A DNA stretch of 64,000 nt from Blastococcus sp. HT6-4. GTDB taxonomy: Bacteria > Actinomycetota > Actinomycetes > Mycobacteriales > Geodermatophilaceae. Location of the stretch: positions 3,906,001-3,970,000 of the forward strand of contig NZ_CP155551.1 in NCBI RefSeq assembly GCF_039679125.1, in the 5' to 3' direction. The position numbers were made by a program, and so were the translations under genes. The notes under the pieces are model-generated. The model searched no databases. It saw only the letters and a list, made by a program, of their open reading frames with translations, and had not been told where the DNA came from. Shown here piece by piece: positions 646 to 7,659 of the stretch. How positions within the stretch are numbered: the first letter of the stretch is position 1; every line of letters begins with the position of its first letter.

Positions 646-2466
646 GTGCGGCAGGCTGGACGGGGGACCGCCGCCGGCGGGCAGCAGCGAGGAGGAGCAG
701 TCATCGAGAAGGCCGAGGCCGGCCGGGGCGCGACGCCGACCCCGGACGACGAGGCGCTACCGGGCACCCCCTCGTGGTTCTCGGTGCTGCACGAGTCCTC
801 GTTCATGTTCGCCGCGGTCTGCGACACCGCCGGGACGCTGCTCACCGCCAACCGCCTGGCCATCGAGGGCCGCGGCTTCGACCGCCGCCGACACCTGGGC
901 CGCCCCTTCTGGGAGGCCGGCTGGTGGGCCGGTGACCCGGACGTGGGCGCCACGATCCGCGAGTGGTGCCTGAAGGTGGCCGCCGGCGGTGAACCGGTCC
1001 GCGCGGTCACCAGCTTCTTCCGCGCCGACGGCACGCGGCGCACCGCCGACCTCACCATGCAGCTCGTCCGCGAAGGTGAGCAGCAGGAGTTCCTCCTGGT
1101 CACCGGTCTGGACATCACCGATCGGCTGCAGACCGAGCGGGTCACCGCCGAGGCGCGCGCGGCGGGCATGGAGGCGTCCACGCTGCGCCAGATCGCCACC
1201 GCCCGGGCCCGCGACCTGGAGGTTCTCCGCGAGACGGAGGCCAAGCTCACCCGCGCGCTCGCCATCTCCGAGCGGGTGCTGGCCAACGTGGCCGACGGCA
1301 TCTACGGGCTCGACATCGACGGCCGGGTGGAGTTCCTCAACCCCGCCGCCGCGCGGCTCACCGGGTACCGGCCCGAGGACCAGCTGGGCTGCGACCAGCA
1401 CGCGCTGATCCACGCCCGGCGCCCGGACGGCTCGCCCTACCCACGCGAGGAGTGCCCGGTCTGGCGGGCCCTCCGGACCGGTCGCACCGTGTTCGCCGAC
1501 GACGAGACGTTCTGGCGCAGCGACGGCACGGCGATCCCGGTGGAGATGGTCGTCGTGCCGACGGTGGAGGAGGGCGCGTTCACCGGCGTCGTCGTCTCGT
1601 TCCGCGACCTCACCGACCGGCGGGCCGCCCAGCGGCAGGCGGCCGAGCTCGAGGCGCTCGCCGCCCGCGCCGCGGCCGAACGGGCGCTGTCGGACCGGCT
1701 GCAGCAGTCGCTGCTCACCCCGCCGCCGGAGCCCGACCACCTGCAGATCGCCGTCCGCTACCGCCCGGCCGCGCACGAGGCGCACGTGGGCGGCGACTGG
1801 TACGACGCCTTCCTCCAGCCCGACGGGGCGACCATGCTCGTCATCGGCGACGTCATCGGCCACGACAGCCGCGCGGCCGCGGCGATGGGCCAGGTCCGGG
1901 GGCTCCTGCGCGCCCTCGCCTACGACGACGAGGAGGGGCCCGCGGCCACGCTCACCCGCGTCGAGCACGCCGCCCGGGGGCTCGCGGTCTCGACCATGGC
2001 CACCGGCGTCCTCGCCCGGATCGAGCGCCACCCCGACGCGCCGGACGCCGTCAGCCGCCTCCTCCGCTGGAGCAACGCCGGCCACCTGCCACCGATCCTG
2101 CTGGCGCCCGACGGCACGAGCACGCTGCTCACCACCCCGCCGGAGCTGATGCTGGGCATCGACCCCGACGCCCCGCGCACCGACCACGCCGTCGACCTGC
2201 CCGACGGGTACACCCTCCTGCTGGTCACCGACGGCCTGGTCGAGCGCCGCGACATCGATCTCGACCAGGGCTTCGAACGGCTGCAGGACGCGCTGCGGGA
2301 CCTCGGCGGCACGCCGCTGGAGGAGCTGCTGGACACGGTGCTCGCCCGGCTGCTGCCCGAGGCGGGCGCCGACGACGTCGCGATCGTGGCCGTGCGCACC
2401 TTCCCCGAGGACCGCCCGCGGCCGCCGGAGGCCGGACCCAACCGGCTGCCGCCCGGGATGGGCTGA
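646..2466 (+). CDS. PAS-PAS-PP2C (SpoIIE/RsbU-type) serine phosphatase
   Basis: A cytosolic sensor phosphatase of about 606 residues. PAS/PAC domain 1 spans about residues 38-160, ending in a DITDR PAC signature. A helical linker follows, then PAS 2 at about 205-325, ending DLTDR, and a SpoIIE/PP2C phosphatase at about 360-595. The phosphatase motifs GGDWYDAF (metal-binding Asp), TDGLVERRD and GADDVAIV are all intact. Such proteins dephosphorylate anti-anti-sigma factors in partner-switching control of stress sigma factors. No RsbV/RsbW partner is adjacent; a lone anti-sigma-type ATPase lies at 25101. The start is uncertain. GTG at 646 has no good ribosome site, while a strong GGAGGAG at 691-697 precedes in-frame GTC/ATC codons rather than a standard start. 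Confidence 0.88.
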   Translation: MRQAGRGTAAGGQQRGGAVIEKAEAGRGATPTPDDEALPGTPSWFSVLHESSFMFAAVCDTAGTLLTANRLAIEGRGFDRRRHLGRPFWEAGWWAGDPDVGATIREWCLKVAAGGEPVRAVTSFFRADGTRRTADLTMQLVREGEQQEFLLVTGLDITDRLQTERVTAEARAAGMEASTLRQIATARARDLEVLRETEAKLTRALAISERVLANVADGIYGLDIDGRVEFLNPAAARLTGYRPEDQLGCDQHALIHARRPDGSPYPREECPVWRALRTGRTVFADDETFWRSDGTAIPVEMVVVPTVEEGAFTGVVVSFRDLTDRRAAQRQAAELEALAARAAAERALSDRLQQSLLTPPPEPDHLQIAVRYRPAAHEAHVGGDWYDAFLQPDGATMLVIGDVIGHDSRAAAAMGQVRGLLRALAYDDEEGPAATLTRVEHAARGLAVSTMATGVLARIERHPDAPDAVSRLLRWSNAGHLPPILLAPDGTSTLLTTPPELMLGIDPDAPRTDHAVDLPDGYTLLLVTDGLVERRDIDLDQGFERLQDALRDLGGTPLEELLDTVLARLLPEAGADDVAIVAVRTFPEDRPRPPEAGPNRLPPGMG

Positions 2467-2474
2467 CGGCGCAC

Positions 2475-2512
2475 GACAGCGCCCGCCCCGGAGGACCGGG
2501 ACGGGCGCTGTC
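2475..2512. terminator. Bidirectional hairpin terminator
   Basis: GACAGCGCCCG (2475-2485) pairs with CGGGCGCTGTC (2502-2512). After one C-A mismatch, CCCGG/CCGGG extends the stem around an AGGA loop. It lies between the convergent PP2C gene and the DUF1416 gene, so it can serve both. A run of T is weak, as usual in high-GC actinobacteria. Confidence 0.75.
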
Positions 2513-2545
2513 GGTCGTTCGGCCCCCCGTGAGGAGGGCAGCTTC

Positions 2546-2839
2546 TCAATCGATGACGACGGTGGTCTCGTTCAGCCCGACCTCGGCCGACAGGACCCGC
2601 TCGCCCTTGCCGACCGCGGCCAGCGAGCGCAGCTTCCACGGGCCCGGCGCGGCGAAGAAGCGGAACTCACCCTCGGGGCTGGTGACCACCTCGGCGGTGA
2701 ACTCGTCGGTCGAGTCGAGCAGCCGGACGTAGGCGCCGGCCACCGGAGCCCCGTCGTGCCACACCTGGCCCTGGATGACCGTCTGGGTGTTCAAGTCGAT
2801 CCCGGCGAGGGAACCGCCCTGCTCGGGCGCTGCGCACAT
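2546..2839 (-). CDS. sseC: DUF1416 protein (SseC-like)
   Basis: A 97-residue protein made almost entirely of one beta-sandwich-like DUF1416 domain, with the pattern VIQGQVWHDGAPVAGAYVRLLD ... GEFRFFAAPGPW. The family is known next to thiosulfate sulfurtransferase genes in actinobacteria (SseC beside CysA in M. tuberculosis). Here the ATG lies 6 bp after the rhodanese stop, so the two are an operon and probably translated together. GAGAAG lies upstream of the start. A role in sulfur or thiosulfate metabolism comes from this context; the biochemical function is not known to me. It is the last gene of the minus-strand sulfur operon before the terminator at 2475-2512. Confidence 0.88.
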   Translation of the reverse strand: MCAAPEQGGSLAGIDLNTQTVIQGQVWHDGAPVAGAYVRLLDSTDEFTAEVVTSPEGEFRFFAAPGPWKLRSLAAVGKGERVLSAEVGLNETTVVID

Positions 2840-2845
2840 GTCAGC

Positions 2846-3673
2846 TCACTTCTCGATCGGGACGCCGACGAGCGAGCCGTACTCGACCCAGCTGCCGTCG
2901 TAGTTCTTGACGTCGGTCTTGCCGAGCAGCTCGCGCAGCACGAACCAGGTGTGGCTCGAGCGCTCGCCGATGCGGCAGTAGGCGATGGTCGGCTTGCTCT
3001 CGTCGTAACCCTGCTCGGCGTAGAGCGCCGCGAGCTGCTGGTCGGACTTGAAGGTGCCGTCCTCGTTGGCCGCCTTGCTCCACGGGATGTTGATCGCCGT
3101 GGGGACGTGGCCGGCCTTCTGCGACTGCTCCTGCGGCAGGTGCGCGGGGGCGAGGATCTTGCCGGAGAACTCGTCGGGCGAGCGGACGTCGACGATGTTC
3201 TTGCTGCCGATGGAGGCCACGACCTCGTCGCGGAACGCACGGATCGACAGGTCGGGCTCGCCGGCCTTGTACTGCGTGGCCGGGCGCTCGACGGCGTCCT
3301 TGGACAGCGGACGGCCGTCCAGCTCCCACTTCTTCCGGCCGCCGTCCATGAGCTTCACGTCGGAGTGGCCGTAGATCTTGAAGTACCAGTAGGCGTAGGC
3401 GGCGAACCAGTTGTTGTTGCCGCCGTAGAGGACGACGGTGTCGTCGTTGCCGATGCCCTTGGCCGACATGAGCTCCTCGAAGGCGCTCTTGTCGAGGAAG
3501 TCGCGGCGCAGCGGGTCCTGCAGGTCCTTCTTCCAGTCCAGCTTGACGGCGCCCTCGATGTGGCCGCCGTCGTAGGCGCTGGTGTCCTCGTCGACCTCGA
3601 CGAGGACGATGCCGGGCTGGCCCAGGTGCTCCTGGACCCAGTCCACCGAGACGAGTACGTCGTTACGGCTCAT
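2846..3673 (-). CDS. cysA: Thiosulfate sulfurtransferase (tandem rhodanese), CysA/SseA type
   Basis: 275 residues, the usual length for a two-domain rhodanese. The N-terminal inactive rhodanese domain spans about residues 1-130 (VSVDWVQEHLG, DTVVLYGG). The C-terminal catalytic domain spans about 140-275, with the active-site loop CRIGERSSHTWF, where the Cys carries the persulfide. The protein transfers sulfane sulfur from thiosulfate (or 3-mercaptopyruvate) to cyanide or thiols. The start ATG is preceded by GGAGGA at 9 nt. A short Cys-rich leader peptide lies 145 bp upstream on the same strand, suggesting cysteine-responsive attenuation. The downstream DUF1416 gene is in the same operon. The name follows mycobacterial CysA2/CysA3 usage and is unrelated to the sulfate-permease CysA. 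Confidence 0.93.
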   Translation of the reverse strand: MSRNDVLVSVDWVQEHLGQPGIVLVEVDEDTSAYDGGHIEGAVKLDWKKDLQDPLRRDFLDKSAFEELMSAKGIGNDDTVVLYGGNNNWFAAYAYWYFKIYGHSDVKLMDGGRKKWELDGRPLSKDAVERPATQYKAGEPDLSIRAFRDEVVASIGSKNIVDVRSPDEFSGKILAPAHLPQEQSQKAGHVPTAINIPWSKAANEDGTFKSDQQLAALYAEQGYDESKPTIAYCRIGERSSHTWFVLRELLGKTDVKNYDGSWVEYGSLVGVPIEK

Positions 3674-3818
3674 GGGTGGTGTTCCTCCGGATGATCGGTG
3701 TGCGGTCGGTCGGTCTGGTGGTGCAGGGACGACGCGGATCGCTCAGACCGCGGAAGTCACGGGAGAAAGGGGCATCCCGACGGCGCGGAGAGCGCGTCTG
3801 GACGGCGCGGTGCCGCCC

Positions 3819-3893
3819 TCAGAGGGGCGGACACAGGCAGCTGCCGACGCGGCACAGGTCGACCGTGCGGCGCGAGGTCAGCAGGATGCCCAC
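3819..3893 (-). CDS. Cys-rich leader peptide of the sulfurtransferase operon (24 aa)
   Basis: A GTG-initiated 24-codon frame whose peptide contains LTSRRTVDLCRVGSCLC, with three Cys near the end. It matches the actinobacterial putative leader peptide pattern (LTSRR-x-VDL-x-RV) found in front of sulfur genes. On the minus strand a TACCCT -10 box (3905-3900) stands 6 nt before the GTG, so the message is probably leaderless. It lies between the thioredoxin stop and the rhodanese start. In mycobacteria, comparable Cys-codon upstream frames are reported to repress downstream genes when cysteine is plentiful. The frame and promoter are visible; regulation by cysteine is inferred from the family. 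Confidence 0.75.
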   Translation of the reverse strand: MGILLTSRRTVDLCRVGSCLCPPL

Positions 3894-3899
3894 GACGCG

Positions 3900-3905
3900 A
3901 GGGTA
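3900..3905 (-). promoter_or_regulatory. -10 box for leaderless leader peptide
   Basis: TACCCT read on the minus strand, 6 nt upstream of the leader peptide GTG (3893). This spacing puts the transcription start at or within a base or two of the start codon. It would give the cysA-sseC operon its own promoter immediately after the thioredoxin gene. Confidence 0.55.
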
Positions 3906-3910
3906 TCCGA

Positions 3911-4267
3911 TCACCACCGGTCCCCCGCATGCGCGTCTACCAGAGCCGTCAGCTCCGCCGGCACCGGCGCGCCGCTGCTGCGACCGAGCACCCGGCCGGC
4001 GCGGTCGAGGTAGAACAGCGTGGGCGTGCGCCGGACGTCGAGTGCGCGCACCTCGTCGAGATGGCTCTCCGCGTCGACCTGGACCACGGCCAGTCCGGGA
4101 CGGGTGGCCTGCAGCTGGGCGAGCCGGGCCCGGGTCACGCGGCAGGGGGCGCAGAAGGCGGTCGAGAACTGGACGACCGTGAGCTCCGCATCGGCCGGGC
4201 GCACGCCCAGCCGCTCGAGCACCGCGGCGGTTCCGCCCACACCCACGGTCCGGTCCACCCGCGGCAC
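3911..4267 (-). CDS. Thioredoxin-family protein (ThiX-like)
   Basis: 118 residues with a thioredoxin fold: TVVQFSTAFCAPCRVTRARL carries the redox motif CAPC, followed by VVQVDAES and the cis-Pro strand RRTPTLFYLD. There is no signal peptide, so it is probably cytoplasmic. The active site differs from the canonical WCGPC (FCAPC). It sits 20 bp after the DUF2993 gene and just before the leader peptide and rhodanese. This matches M. tuberculosis ThiX (Rv0816c) beside CysA2, and suggests it reduces a protein of sulfur transfer. The partner is unknown. GTG start at 4267; no strong ribosome site is seen. Confidence 0.85.
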   Translation of the reverse strand: MPRVDRTVGVGGTAAVLERLGVRPADAELTVVQFSTAFCAPCRVTRARLAQLQATRPGLAVVQVDAESHLDEVRALDVRRTPTLFYLDRAGRVLGRSSGAPVPAELTALVDAHAGDRW

Positions 4268-4287
4268 AACCCACCCGGCCGGGCGGG

Positions 4288-4977
4288 CTATTCCGCCGCG
4301 AGCACGGTGTCCACGGCCTCCACCCGGACGTCCACCCCGTCCTCGGCCGGCTGCACCTCGAGCAGGCGCAGGCCGAAGGGCAACTCGATCGGGTAACGGA
4401 GGTCGAGCAGGTCGTTCGCCCGCTCCACGAGCTCGTCGGGCACCGGTAGCCCCGCGCCTGAGGCCCGCTCGACGTCGATGACCAGCTCGTCGCCGTCGAG
4501 GGCCACCGTCCCGGCGGCGGTGAGCGGCACCGAGCGGCCGAGCAGCTCGACGGTGCGGGTGATCCGCAGCCCGTCGCCCTCGCGCCGCAGCACGGTGTCA
4601 CCACCGAGCTCGTCCGAGAGCAGGGCGTAGGACAGCGTCGCCGTGCCGTCGATCCGCTCGACCGGCACCTCCTGCACCTGGCCGGAGAGCACCGCCGACA
4701 GCGGCACCCACACCCCGGTGAGCGCGACCTCGGCCTGCGTGCCCTCGCGCCGGCCCAGCGTCTCGGCGTCCAGCGAGATGCGGACGTCCTCGTACCGGCC
4801 GCCGACCGCCTGGGTGAGGAACGGGAAGCCGCGGATGTCCACATCCGGCGGGCCCGCCAGCGCGCTCTGCGCGGCCAGCTGCCGGGCCACCTGCCCCTCG
4901 GCGATGGCCATGGCGACCCGGTCGGCCAGCACCCCGAGGCCGAGGAGCACGAGCAGGACGACGGCGAGGGCCTTCAC
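4288..4977 (-). CDS. DUF2993 (LmeA-like) envelope protein
   Basis: 229 residues. An N-terminal hydrophobic segment (about residues 2-25, LAVVLLVLLGLGVLADRVA) acts as signal or anchor. The rest is a beta-rich DUF2993 domain with the DIRGFPFLTQAVGGRYEDV signature and repeated ITRTV/LTAAG strands, as expected of a lipid-binding extracytoplasmic fold. The mycobacterial homologue LmeA (Rv0817c) takes part in lipomannan elongation. It has the same neighbours there (thioredoxin one side, GlnR the other), which supports orthology. Substrate here is unknown. The GTG start lies in the second copy of a 14-bp tandem duplication that also holds the stop of the upstream membrane gene. Confidence 0.85.
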   Translation of the reverse strand: MKALAVVLLVLLGLGVLADRVAMAIAEGQVARQLAAQSALAGPPDVDIRGFPFLTQAVGGRYEDVRISLDAETLGRREGTQAEVALTGVWVPLSAVLSGQVQEVPVERIDGTATLSYALLSDELGGDTVLRREGDGLRITRTVELLGRSVPLTAAGTVALDGDELVIDVERASGAGLPVPDELVERANDLLDLRYPIELPFGLRLLEVQPAEDGVDVRVEAVDTVLAAE

Positions 4978-5863: not shown

Positions 5864-6020
5864 TCGCCGGAACGGGGACCACCGCACCCCTCGACCGACC
5901 GTGCGCCGACGAGATCCGCCTGGTCGACCAGCACCTCCGCTATCCTGCGAGCTCACCTCGACAGCGTTGTCGTAGGTCCGGCCGGTGCCCCGCCGGCCCC
6001 GGACCCCTGAGGGAGACGAC

Positions 6021-6752
6021 ATGCGACTCGTGCTCATGACCGCGGCGCGGCAGGCCACGACCGAGGTGCTGCCCGCGCTCGGGCTGCTCGGCCACCAGGT
6101 GCGCGTGATGGCCCCGGAGCTCTCCAGCCTCCTGGACGGCGACTCCGGGGACGTGGTCCTCGTCGACGCCCGCCACGATCTGATCCGGGCCCGCACCCTC
6201 TGCGGCCTGCTCTCCTCCACCGGCGTGGCCGCGGCCCTGGTCGCCGTCCTCTCCGAGGGGGGCCTGGTCGCGCTCTCGGCGGACTGGGGGGTCGACGACG
6301 TGCTGCTCGACACCGCCGGCCCCGCCGAGGTCGACGCCCGGCTCAAGTGGGCCACCGCGCGCCGGCTGGCGGCCGCGACGCCCGCCGACGGCGCCGACGG
6401 CGGCGTCACCCAGGCCGGCGAGCTGGTCATCGACGAGCACAGCTACTCGGCGAAGCTGCGCGGCCGCCCGCTCGATCTCACCTACAAGGAGTTCGAGCTG
6501 CTGAAGTACCTGGCCCAGCACCCGGGCCGGGTCTTCTCGCGGGCCCAGCTGCTCCAGGAGATCTGGGGCTACGACTACTTCGGCGGCACCCGCACCGTCG
6601 ACGTCCACGTGCGCCGGCTGCGGGCCAAGCTGGGCACCGAGCACGAGGCGCTCATCGGCACGGTGCGCAACGTGGGCTACAAGCTCGACCAGCAGGTGGC
6701 CGACGCGACCGCCAAGGCCGCCCGGGCGGAGACCGACGCCGAACTGGTCTGA
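6021..6752 (+). CDS. glnR: GlnR, OmpR-type nitrogen regulator
   Basis: 243 residues. The receiver-like domain (about residues 1-115) carries LVDARHDL and CGLLSSTG followed by [13 protein letters not shown]. The winged-helix DNA-binding domain (about 135-225) carries [20 protein letters not shown] and [16 protein letters not shown]. These strings are nearly identical to GlnR of mycobacteria and streptomycetes, an orphan OmpR-type regulator of glnA, amtB and nitrogen assimilation that acts as a dimer without a known kinase. ATG at 6021 has GGGAG at 6 nt, so I chose it over an upstream in-frame GTG. mshD follows after 7 bp, as Rv0818-Rv0819 do in M. tuberculosis. Confidence 0.95.
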
Positions 6753-6759
6753 TGGCCCG

Positions 6760-7659
6760 GTGAGCAACGATCCCGACGTCGCCGAGGTCCTCGCGCTGCT
6801 GCGCGCCGCCACCGCCGCCGACGGGGTGCGCCCGGTCTCCGAGGAGGCCGAGCTCCGCCTGCAGCACCGCTCGCCCGGCGGACGCGACCTCGTCGTCCGC
6901 ACCGGCGACGGCGCCCTGGCCGGCTACGCCCGGATCGACGACGGCACCGCCGAGCTGGTCGTGCACCCCGCCCACCGGCGCCGGGGCCACGGGACGGCGC
7001 TGCTGCGGCAGCTCCTCGATCTGACCGCCGAGCGGCCGCTGAGCATCTGGGCCCACGGGGACCTGCCGGGCTCGGCCGAGCTGCTGGCCCCGCACGGCTT
7101 CACCCGGGCCCGGGTGCTGCTGCAGATGCGCCTGCCGGACCTGACTGCCGCCGCGGTCGACCCGAACCCCGCGCTGCCCGAGGACGTGCGGGTGCTGCCG
7201 TTCCGCCGCGGACGGGACGAGGAGGCGTGGTTGCGGGTCAACGCCCGCGCGTTCGCCTGGCACCCGGAGCAGGGCCGGATGACCCGGGAGGACCTGGAGC
7301 TGCGGGAGGCCGAGCCCTGGTTCGACCCCGAGGGCTTCCTCATGGCCTGGCGCGGGGATCCCCACGCGGACGGCGAGCTGCTGGGCTTCCACTGGACGAA
7401 GGTGCACCCGCCGGGCGACGCCGCCGAGGACGCGGTCGGCGAGATCTACGTGCTGGGCGTGGATCCGGGGGCCCAGGGGCTGCGGCTGGGGCGCGCGCTC
7501 ACCGACCTGGGGCTGGCGCACCTGCGCGGGCGGGGCCTCGGGGAGGTGCTGCTCTACGTCGAGGAGGACAACACCGCGGCCGTCGGGCTCTACGAGGGGC
7601 GCGGGTTCCGGCGGTTCGCGGTGGACGTCGCCTGGCGGCGCGAGCCCGCCGGGGACTGA
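6760..7659 (+). CDS. mshD: Mycothiol synthase (GCN5-type acetyltransferase)
   Basis: 299 residues with two tandem GNAT domains, as in MshD. The N-terminal domain (about 1-140) has VHPAHRRRGHGTALLRQLL. The C-terminal, catalytically competent domain (about 145-299) has EIYVLGVDPGAQGLRLGRAL and LYVEEDNTAAVGLYEGRGF. The central NARAFAWHPEQGRM motif is typical of mycothiol synthases. The enzyme acetylates Cys-GlcN-Ins with acetyl-CoA in the last step of mycothiol biosynthesis. GTG start 7 bp after the glnR stop; probably co-transcribed. Its presence shows that the organism makes mycothiol. Confidence 0.95.
   Translation: MSNDPDVAEVLALLRAATAADGVRPVSEEAELRLQHRSPGGRDLVVRTGDGALAGYARIDDGTAELVVHPAHRRRGHGTALLRQLLDLTAERPLSIWAHGDLPGSAELLAPHGFTRARVLLQMRLPDLTAAAVDPNPALPEDVRVLPFRRGRDEEAWLRVNARAFAWHPEQGRMTREDLELREAEPWFDPEGFLMAWRGDPHADGELLGFHWTKVHPPGDAAEDAVGEIYVLGVDPGAQGLRLGRALTDLGLAHLRGRGLGEVLLYVEEDNTAAVGLYEGRGFRRFAVDVAWRREPAGD

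Follow-up and report, generated by a model that had tools for sequence, protein, structure and literature searches.

The window, a stretch of 64,000 nucleotides, contained a leader ORF with genes for an LmeA-like and a thioredoxin-like protein before it and genes for a rhodanese and a DUF1416 protein behind it. The upstream thioredoxin-like protein (3911..4267, minus strand) matched PF00085 (E 1.9e-8). On the minus strand too, the rhodanese, a two-domain sulfurtransferase of 275 amino acids (2846..3673), matched PF00581 in two stretches (E 4.4e-34), and the DUF1416 protein of 97 amino acids (2546..2839) matched PF07210 (E 2.3e-38). Direct reading placed a Shine-Dalgarno (SD) sequence for the rhodanese, GGAGGA, at 3683..3688 on the same strand. 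There were no Rfam matches in 2400-4400. Near the rhodanese locus, on the plus strand at 6760-7659, was mycothiol synthase MshD (TIGR03448, 312 bits), which makes a cysteine-derived thiol, and a GlnR-like regulator (5985-6749) adjoins it.

The leader ORF (3819..3893, minus strand) was identified by direct reading and by a family match. It runs for 24 codons and a stop, from a GTG at 3893-3891 to a TGA at 3821-3819, and encodes the peptide VGILLTSRRTVDLCRVGSCLCPPL. Its Cys codons are codon 14, TGC (3854-3852), codon 19, TGC (3839-3837), and codon 21, TGT (3833-3831), and 145 nt separate its stop from the rhodanese ATG at 3673. A -10-like hexamer, TACCCT (3900..3905, minus strand), precedes the GTG by a 6-nt spacer, CGCGTC, so that 3819-3905 comprises the leader ORF and the -10 box; the stop codon of the thioredoxin-like gene is 5 nt before the box. 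The original prediction had described just such a minus-strand frame, with three Cys near its end and a -10 box 6 nt before its GTG, and direct reading confirmed both the frame and the box. The hexamer is a putative promoter, and its spacing to the GTG predicts a leaderless mRNA that starts on the GTG. The frame is already open far upstream, for 341 codons of G+C-rich DNA (4844-3819), so openness by itself proves nothing.

The leader peptide matched the NCBIfam model NF042933 (leader_Ms5788A) at 41.7 bits (E 6.7e-11). Because this is under the curated cut-off of 45 bits, the leader is treated here as an Ms5788A-like positional homologue and not as a model-defined member. Against the broader model NF042934 (cis_reg_atten) the peptide scored 29.1 bits, above the cut-off of 27 bits, and 27.2 bits in a genome search. 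When the Ms5788A model was run against six frames of the whole genome there was one clear match, the window leader (E 5.3e-8; next 0.44). It lies before a rhodanese/DUF1416 locus, as expected of the Ms5788A family. By sequence and position, the window leader corresponds to the cysteine leader ORF of mycobacteria, Ms5788A, as its positional homologue. Leaders of this kind have already been described and are not a new proposal (Shell 2015; Canestrari 2020). Shell 2015 (PMC4633059) reported an ORF with a cluster of Cys codons upstream of mycobacterial cysA2/Msmeg_5788, found it occupied by ribosomes in M. smegmatis, and speculated on attenuation. Papers that cite Canestrari 2020 state that such ORFs control downstream translation via cysteine-dependent attenuation (PMC9031893), that M. 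tuberculosis has six predicted cysteine-responsive regulatory ORFs (PMC9094748), and that cysteine genes of M. smegmatis are under translation attenuation (PMC13236596). The expectation that the peptide belongs to a family found before actinobacterial sulfur genes was borne out.

Comparison with the Ms5788A/cysA2 (Rv0815c) leader showed a related peptide (the NF042933 match), Cys codons near the end, a start position that fits a leaderless mRNA, and the same type of locus, rhodanese plus DUF1416, to which many relatives add DUF4395. The window differs in that its Cys codons are not consecutive (C-R-V-G-S-C-L-C) and in that its locus has neither DUF4395 nor a modelled release of the next SD. 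The Ms4527A-type leader, which according to Shell 2015 precedes nirA in mycobacteria, has the broad cis_reg_atten pattern in common with the window leader but belongs to another subfamily and locus, and the window peptide scores 19 bits there. Two further Cys leader candidates were seen in the genome: MTRTTMLLLVSRLHVDLLRVCTAACPAC (L002, C1:981131-981187, minus strand) before a TauE/SafE sulfite-exporter-like permease, and MTDRGALLVARLHIDLALVSSAACRAAR (L167, C1:844843-844896, minus strand) before a sulfite/nitrite reductase. Both score under the curated cut-offs and are weaker than the window leader. At least one cis_reg_atten match was found in 56 of the 57 genomes of the bacterial family at E 0.01, and in 52 of the 57 above the cut-off. 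Among 296 genomes of the phylum, 23 had a match to the Ms5788A model at E 1e-4 and 10 exceeded the 45-bit cut-off, so the strict Ms5788A family is not universal in the phylum.

A rhodanese above threshold was found in 54 of the 57 genomes of the bacterial family, at 57 places in total, of which 56, the window's own included, were examined and one partial place was left out. The leader was present at 52 of the 56 loci, the window included, and three of the four loci that had no leader were second rhodanese copies. The leader start was GTG in 48 cases and ATG in four, and was preceded by TANNNT at a distance of 6 nt, as in the window, in 43 of the 52 loci, 7 nt in eight and 8 nt in one, against a background rate for TANNNT of about 0.0004 per position. 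The family match, the occurrence at 52 of 56 loci and the fixed spacing of TANNNT together confirm, by comparison of sequences, that the leader ORF is real. The conservation in related genomes on which the original prediction depended was found for the peptide and for the first and last Cys codons, which were kept in all 52 leaders. The middle Cys was kept in 41 and was S, T or A in the other 11, so three Cys are not required. The Cys pattern is shifted at the leader ends of L017, L018, L019 and L023, which read GS(S/T)RCPAC; the middle Cys is lost and a new Cys is the last codon. Among the best 80 of at least 584 named actinobacterial rhodanese loci, a regular expression found a leader at 68; it may overlook divergent leaders among the 12 without a match, one of which (L110) has no upstream DNA. 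The nearest named rhodanese loci put the organism in the Blastococcus/Geodermatophilus/Modestobacter group.

Conservation at third codon positions was 0.82 in the leader ORF and 0.82 in the rhodanese genes, and so was not raised in the leader. Within the window's clade of five loci, identity was 92-94% over the -10 box and spacer, the ORF, and a hairpin just past the stop, 87% over the next segment up to the start of a DUF4395 relic described below, and 77% over the remaining spacer. Third positions in this clade were 88% identical in the leader ORF and 86% in the rhodanese, which indicates that the leader is kept about like coding sequence and not better.

A hairpin, GCACGG-UCGAC-CUGUGC (3852..3868, minus strand), is predicted inside the leader ORF, with the consensus GCRCRG-N5-CUGUGY over the codons R-T-V-D-L-C. 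Its six pairs are possible in 117 of 120 loci (52 from the bacterial family and 68 named ones; a few, such as L022/L066 and L031/L070, look like one genome counted twice), through invariance or G-U pairs; no double compensation was found in the 120. V is preceded by a codon, in most cases for Thr or Ala, whose third base is a purine in 120 of 120 loci. Where this codon encodes Thr in the bacterial family, it is ACA in 44 of 47 cases, while Thr ACA was used 0 times in 554 in the neighboring rhodanese genes, and the last leader Cys is TGT in all 52 family loci. Support for a putative intra-ORF RNA hairpin thus comes from this avoidance of the common codon and not from double compensation, and since overall third-position conservation is not raised, a nucleotide constraint is claimed for the hairpin codons only. 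A DNA operator at the same place was considered; the one-arm changes, being compatible with G-U, suit RNA better, but double compensation is missing. The original prediction had proposed seeking a conserved hairpin in the region among relatives, and hairpins are present in the region.

A DUF4395-type frame lies between leader and rhodanese in 30 of the 52 family loci, where the gap between the two is 491-604 nt; one representative matched PF14340 (E 8e-46), and the frame in L043 looks shifted. DUF4395 starts 46-59 nt past the leader stop, or 95-96 nt in L058 and L061, and the codons past the last Cys (GGCCTCC, GACCTTC, GACTCCC) mirror the DUF4395 SD (GGAGGCC, GAAGGTC, GGGAGTC). Canestrari et al. 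reportedly described in 2020 a masked ribosome-binding site that is released by stalled ribosomes. The helix of leader tail and DUF4395 SD was taken from a fold of the L039 sequence alone. It was counted in 20 of the 30 loci, leaving aside L058, L061 and eight others that have long ORFs or belong to the same genus. In these 20 aligned loci, 81% of cells were paired, compared with 77% in shuffled alignments, both sides had changed in 13 cells compared with 5.6 (0 of 500 shuffles reached 13), and the covariation score was 0.251 compared with 0.171. Paired cells and covariation score, though not pair types, were highest at zero slide; the helix beats its slid versions partly because the structure came from one of the loci. 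Shuffles were not beaten in the number of helix pairs with a double change (four of seven, compared with 2.8 shuffled, reached by 114 of 500) or in further pair types (seven, compared with 8.9 shuffled, reached by 500 of 500). Duplexes of each locus's own leader tail and DUF4395 SD stood at -11.14 in the 30 loci, compared with -9.16 when permuted (sd 0.39; 0 of 20000 permutations); these P values ignore kinship, for which a test with one locus per distinct tail is a partial remedy, and with the 17 distinct tails the duplexes stood at -11.0 compared with -8.99 (sd 0.52; 0 of 20000). The post-stop hairpin also covaries in the DUF4395-bearing relatives.

Folding gave mixed results. RNAalifold on 28 of the 30 DUF4395-type leaders returned another fold of 22 pairs, none covarying, in which the SD helix was absent. 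A genus with longer ORFs probably misaligns here, and the result counts against the proposed structure. Single-sequence folds contained the SD helix in L039, L033, L014 and L044 and did not contain it in L010, and the fold of L033 was no stabler than shuffles (z 0.13). With a ribosome modelled on the last Cys codon, the mean cost of opening the DUF4395 SD in the 30 loci fell from 7.0 to 5.2 kcal/mol. The drop was at least 1 kcal/mol in 19 loci (10.4 to 4.7 in L039, 8.1 to 2.3 in L036) and did not reach that size in the other 11; in six of these (L022, L026, L028, L035, L046, L051) the cost rose by at least 0.9. A modelled ribosome on an early codon gave a mean of 6.6, and one on the stop codon 5.2, equal to the Cys stall. 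Six mycobacterial loci were tried and two without an SD by pattern were dropped; in all four that were testable, stalling at any Cys codon from the second onward lowered the SD cost from 6.7-10.2 to 2.1-5.7, while the first Cys codon gave no drop. Covariation and the stall model together support attenuation of translation by SD unmasking in the DUF4395-bearing relatives.

In transcription attenuators of the trp/ilv type, a leader peptide holds codons of the amino acid that is sensed. The window leader shares this property and differs from these attenuators in that no intrinsic terminator (G+C hairpin plus U-run) was found in 3600-4000, nor was a sigma-70 pattern. As to the downstream signals that the original prediction had the leader expose or hide, the evidence in relatives points to a masked SD and attenuation of translation.

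In 22 of the 52 family loci, leader and rhodanese have no full DUF4395 gene between them. These 22 span six genera, and in four of the six there are other loci that retain DUF4395. The window is one such locus, and a genome search found no DUF4395 in its genome. By-eye comparison with relatives suggests that ATGCCCCTTTCTCCCGTGACT and on (3743..3775, minus strand) is what remains of the start region of the lost DUF4395. Its frames, from an ATG (10 codons) or a GTG (five codons), end at a common TGA 69 nt before the rhodanese ATG, and the old SD position now reads GGGATG. In L031, L040, L021, L027 and L060, DUF4395 is down to frames of 21-75 codons right before the rhodanese, with the start kept and in several cases the last codons too. 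By eye, L031 and L040 have lost the middle of the gene but keep its start and its tail codons, and the L060 relic frame ends at the rhodanese SD. In the predicted fold of the window, the last leader codons, CCGCCC, pair with GGGCGG just past the stop, within the post-stop segment GGGCGGC...GCCGUCC (3800..3818, minus strand) whose homologous hairpin covaries in relatives, and the first leader codons, GGGCAUCC, pair with GGGAUGCC at the relic start.

From these observations the window leader is probably an Ms5788A-type cysteine leader ORF of a thioredoxin/rhodanese/DUF1416 locus with its sensing half intact. The leaderless mRNA would begin on the GTG, at the predicted transcription start, and a shortage of Cys-tRNA would slow the ribosome at the UGC and UGU codons. 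Where relatives have leader ORF, DUF4395, rhodanese and DUF1416 in this order, the DUF4395 SD pairs with the codons right past the last Cys; a ribosome stalled at Cys would cover these masking codons and free the DUF4395 start, so that the operon is translated at low cysteine. In the window's lineage DUF4395 is gone while the leader ORF and the relic start remain. The output on the rhodanese may then be indirect: instead of unmasking an SD, translation would protect the leader transcript against early termination, probably by Rho. This last step, an indirect output on rhodanese, is put forward tentatively, at somewhat less than even confidence. The leader may reach the rhodanese by polarity, by re-targeting, by relay, or not at all. 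The original prediction that the leader links rhodanese and DUF1416 levels to cysteine is upheld for the presence of a Cys leader, and weakened by the absence of DUF4395 and of a modelled unmasking of the rhodanese SD.

Rather unlikely, but the strongest of the other explanations, is that the leader has outlived its target, so that the Cys ORF still senses cysteine while the rhodanese uses its own strong SD without leader control. Across the 22 loci without DUF4395 the rhodanese SD is on average unresponsive to modelled stalling (mean cost 6.1 to 6.2), pairing of leader tail and rhodanese SD is not clearly specific to lineage when compared with permuted pairs (P 0.077), and the ORF in the window's clade is conserved no better than the rhodanese. 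On the other hand, the first and last Cys codons are kept in all 22 of these loci, and the region from the -10 box through the post-stop hairpin is more alike in the window's clade than the spacer past the relic start. A related view, also doubtful, is that an attenuator has outlived its target with the Cys leader kept and DUF4395 lost, some of the losses leaving short relic frames that still carry the former SD and start, and that the sensor may drive the next gene by relay translation or polarity.

Direct re-targeting, by which the leader would now mask the rhodanese SD and stalling would free it, is improbable. The isolated duplex of leader tail and rhodanese SD has -10.2 kcal/mol in the window and up to -14.1 in relatives, but it is absent from the window's predicted fold, its lineage specificity is unclear as noted above, and the modelled cost of opening the rhodanese SD stays at 6.8 to 6.9 kcal/mol on stalling. 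This modelled release of nil is weak as a negative, since the same model misses 11 of the 30 loci whose helix group covaries.

Slightly less probable still is a relay, in which translation would continue from the relic DUF4395 start and lead ribosomes on to the rhodanese. The relic frame overlaps the rhodanese ATG in L011, L015 and L041, runs into that ATG in the same frame in L008, L013 and L032, and stops 12-67 nt short of it in L021, L027, L031, L040 and L060. Stalling made the relic start easier to open by at least 1 kcal/mol in six of the 14 loci tested (L021, L027, L032, L040, L041, L060). DNA this rich in G+C often has open frames by chance, however, and the relic frame of the window stops 69 nt short of the rhodanese after five or 10 codons; its start stays closed on modelled stalling (9.9 to 12.1), as do those of four clade mates. 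A chance reading frame, which the 341 open codons in G+C-rich DNA would allow, is extremely improbable and is refuted by the family E-values, the 52 of 56 loci and the fixed -10 spacing.

The unusual point of the Ms5788A-type leader in the window seems to be that the sensor is retained and its ancestral target is absent. The analysis extends a cysteine switch known from mycobacteria to this bacterial family and adds comparative support for a masked-SD mechanism. The natural losses, which keep the sensor without the gene behind it, offer a system for asking how the remainder of an operon is controlled by its leader ORF. A link to cysteine would also help to place DUF4395 and DUF1416, two domains of unknown function. 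If the proposed history is true, deletion of a gene alone could re-wire the outputs of an attenuator.
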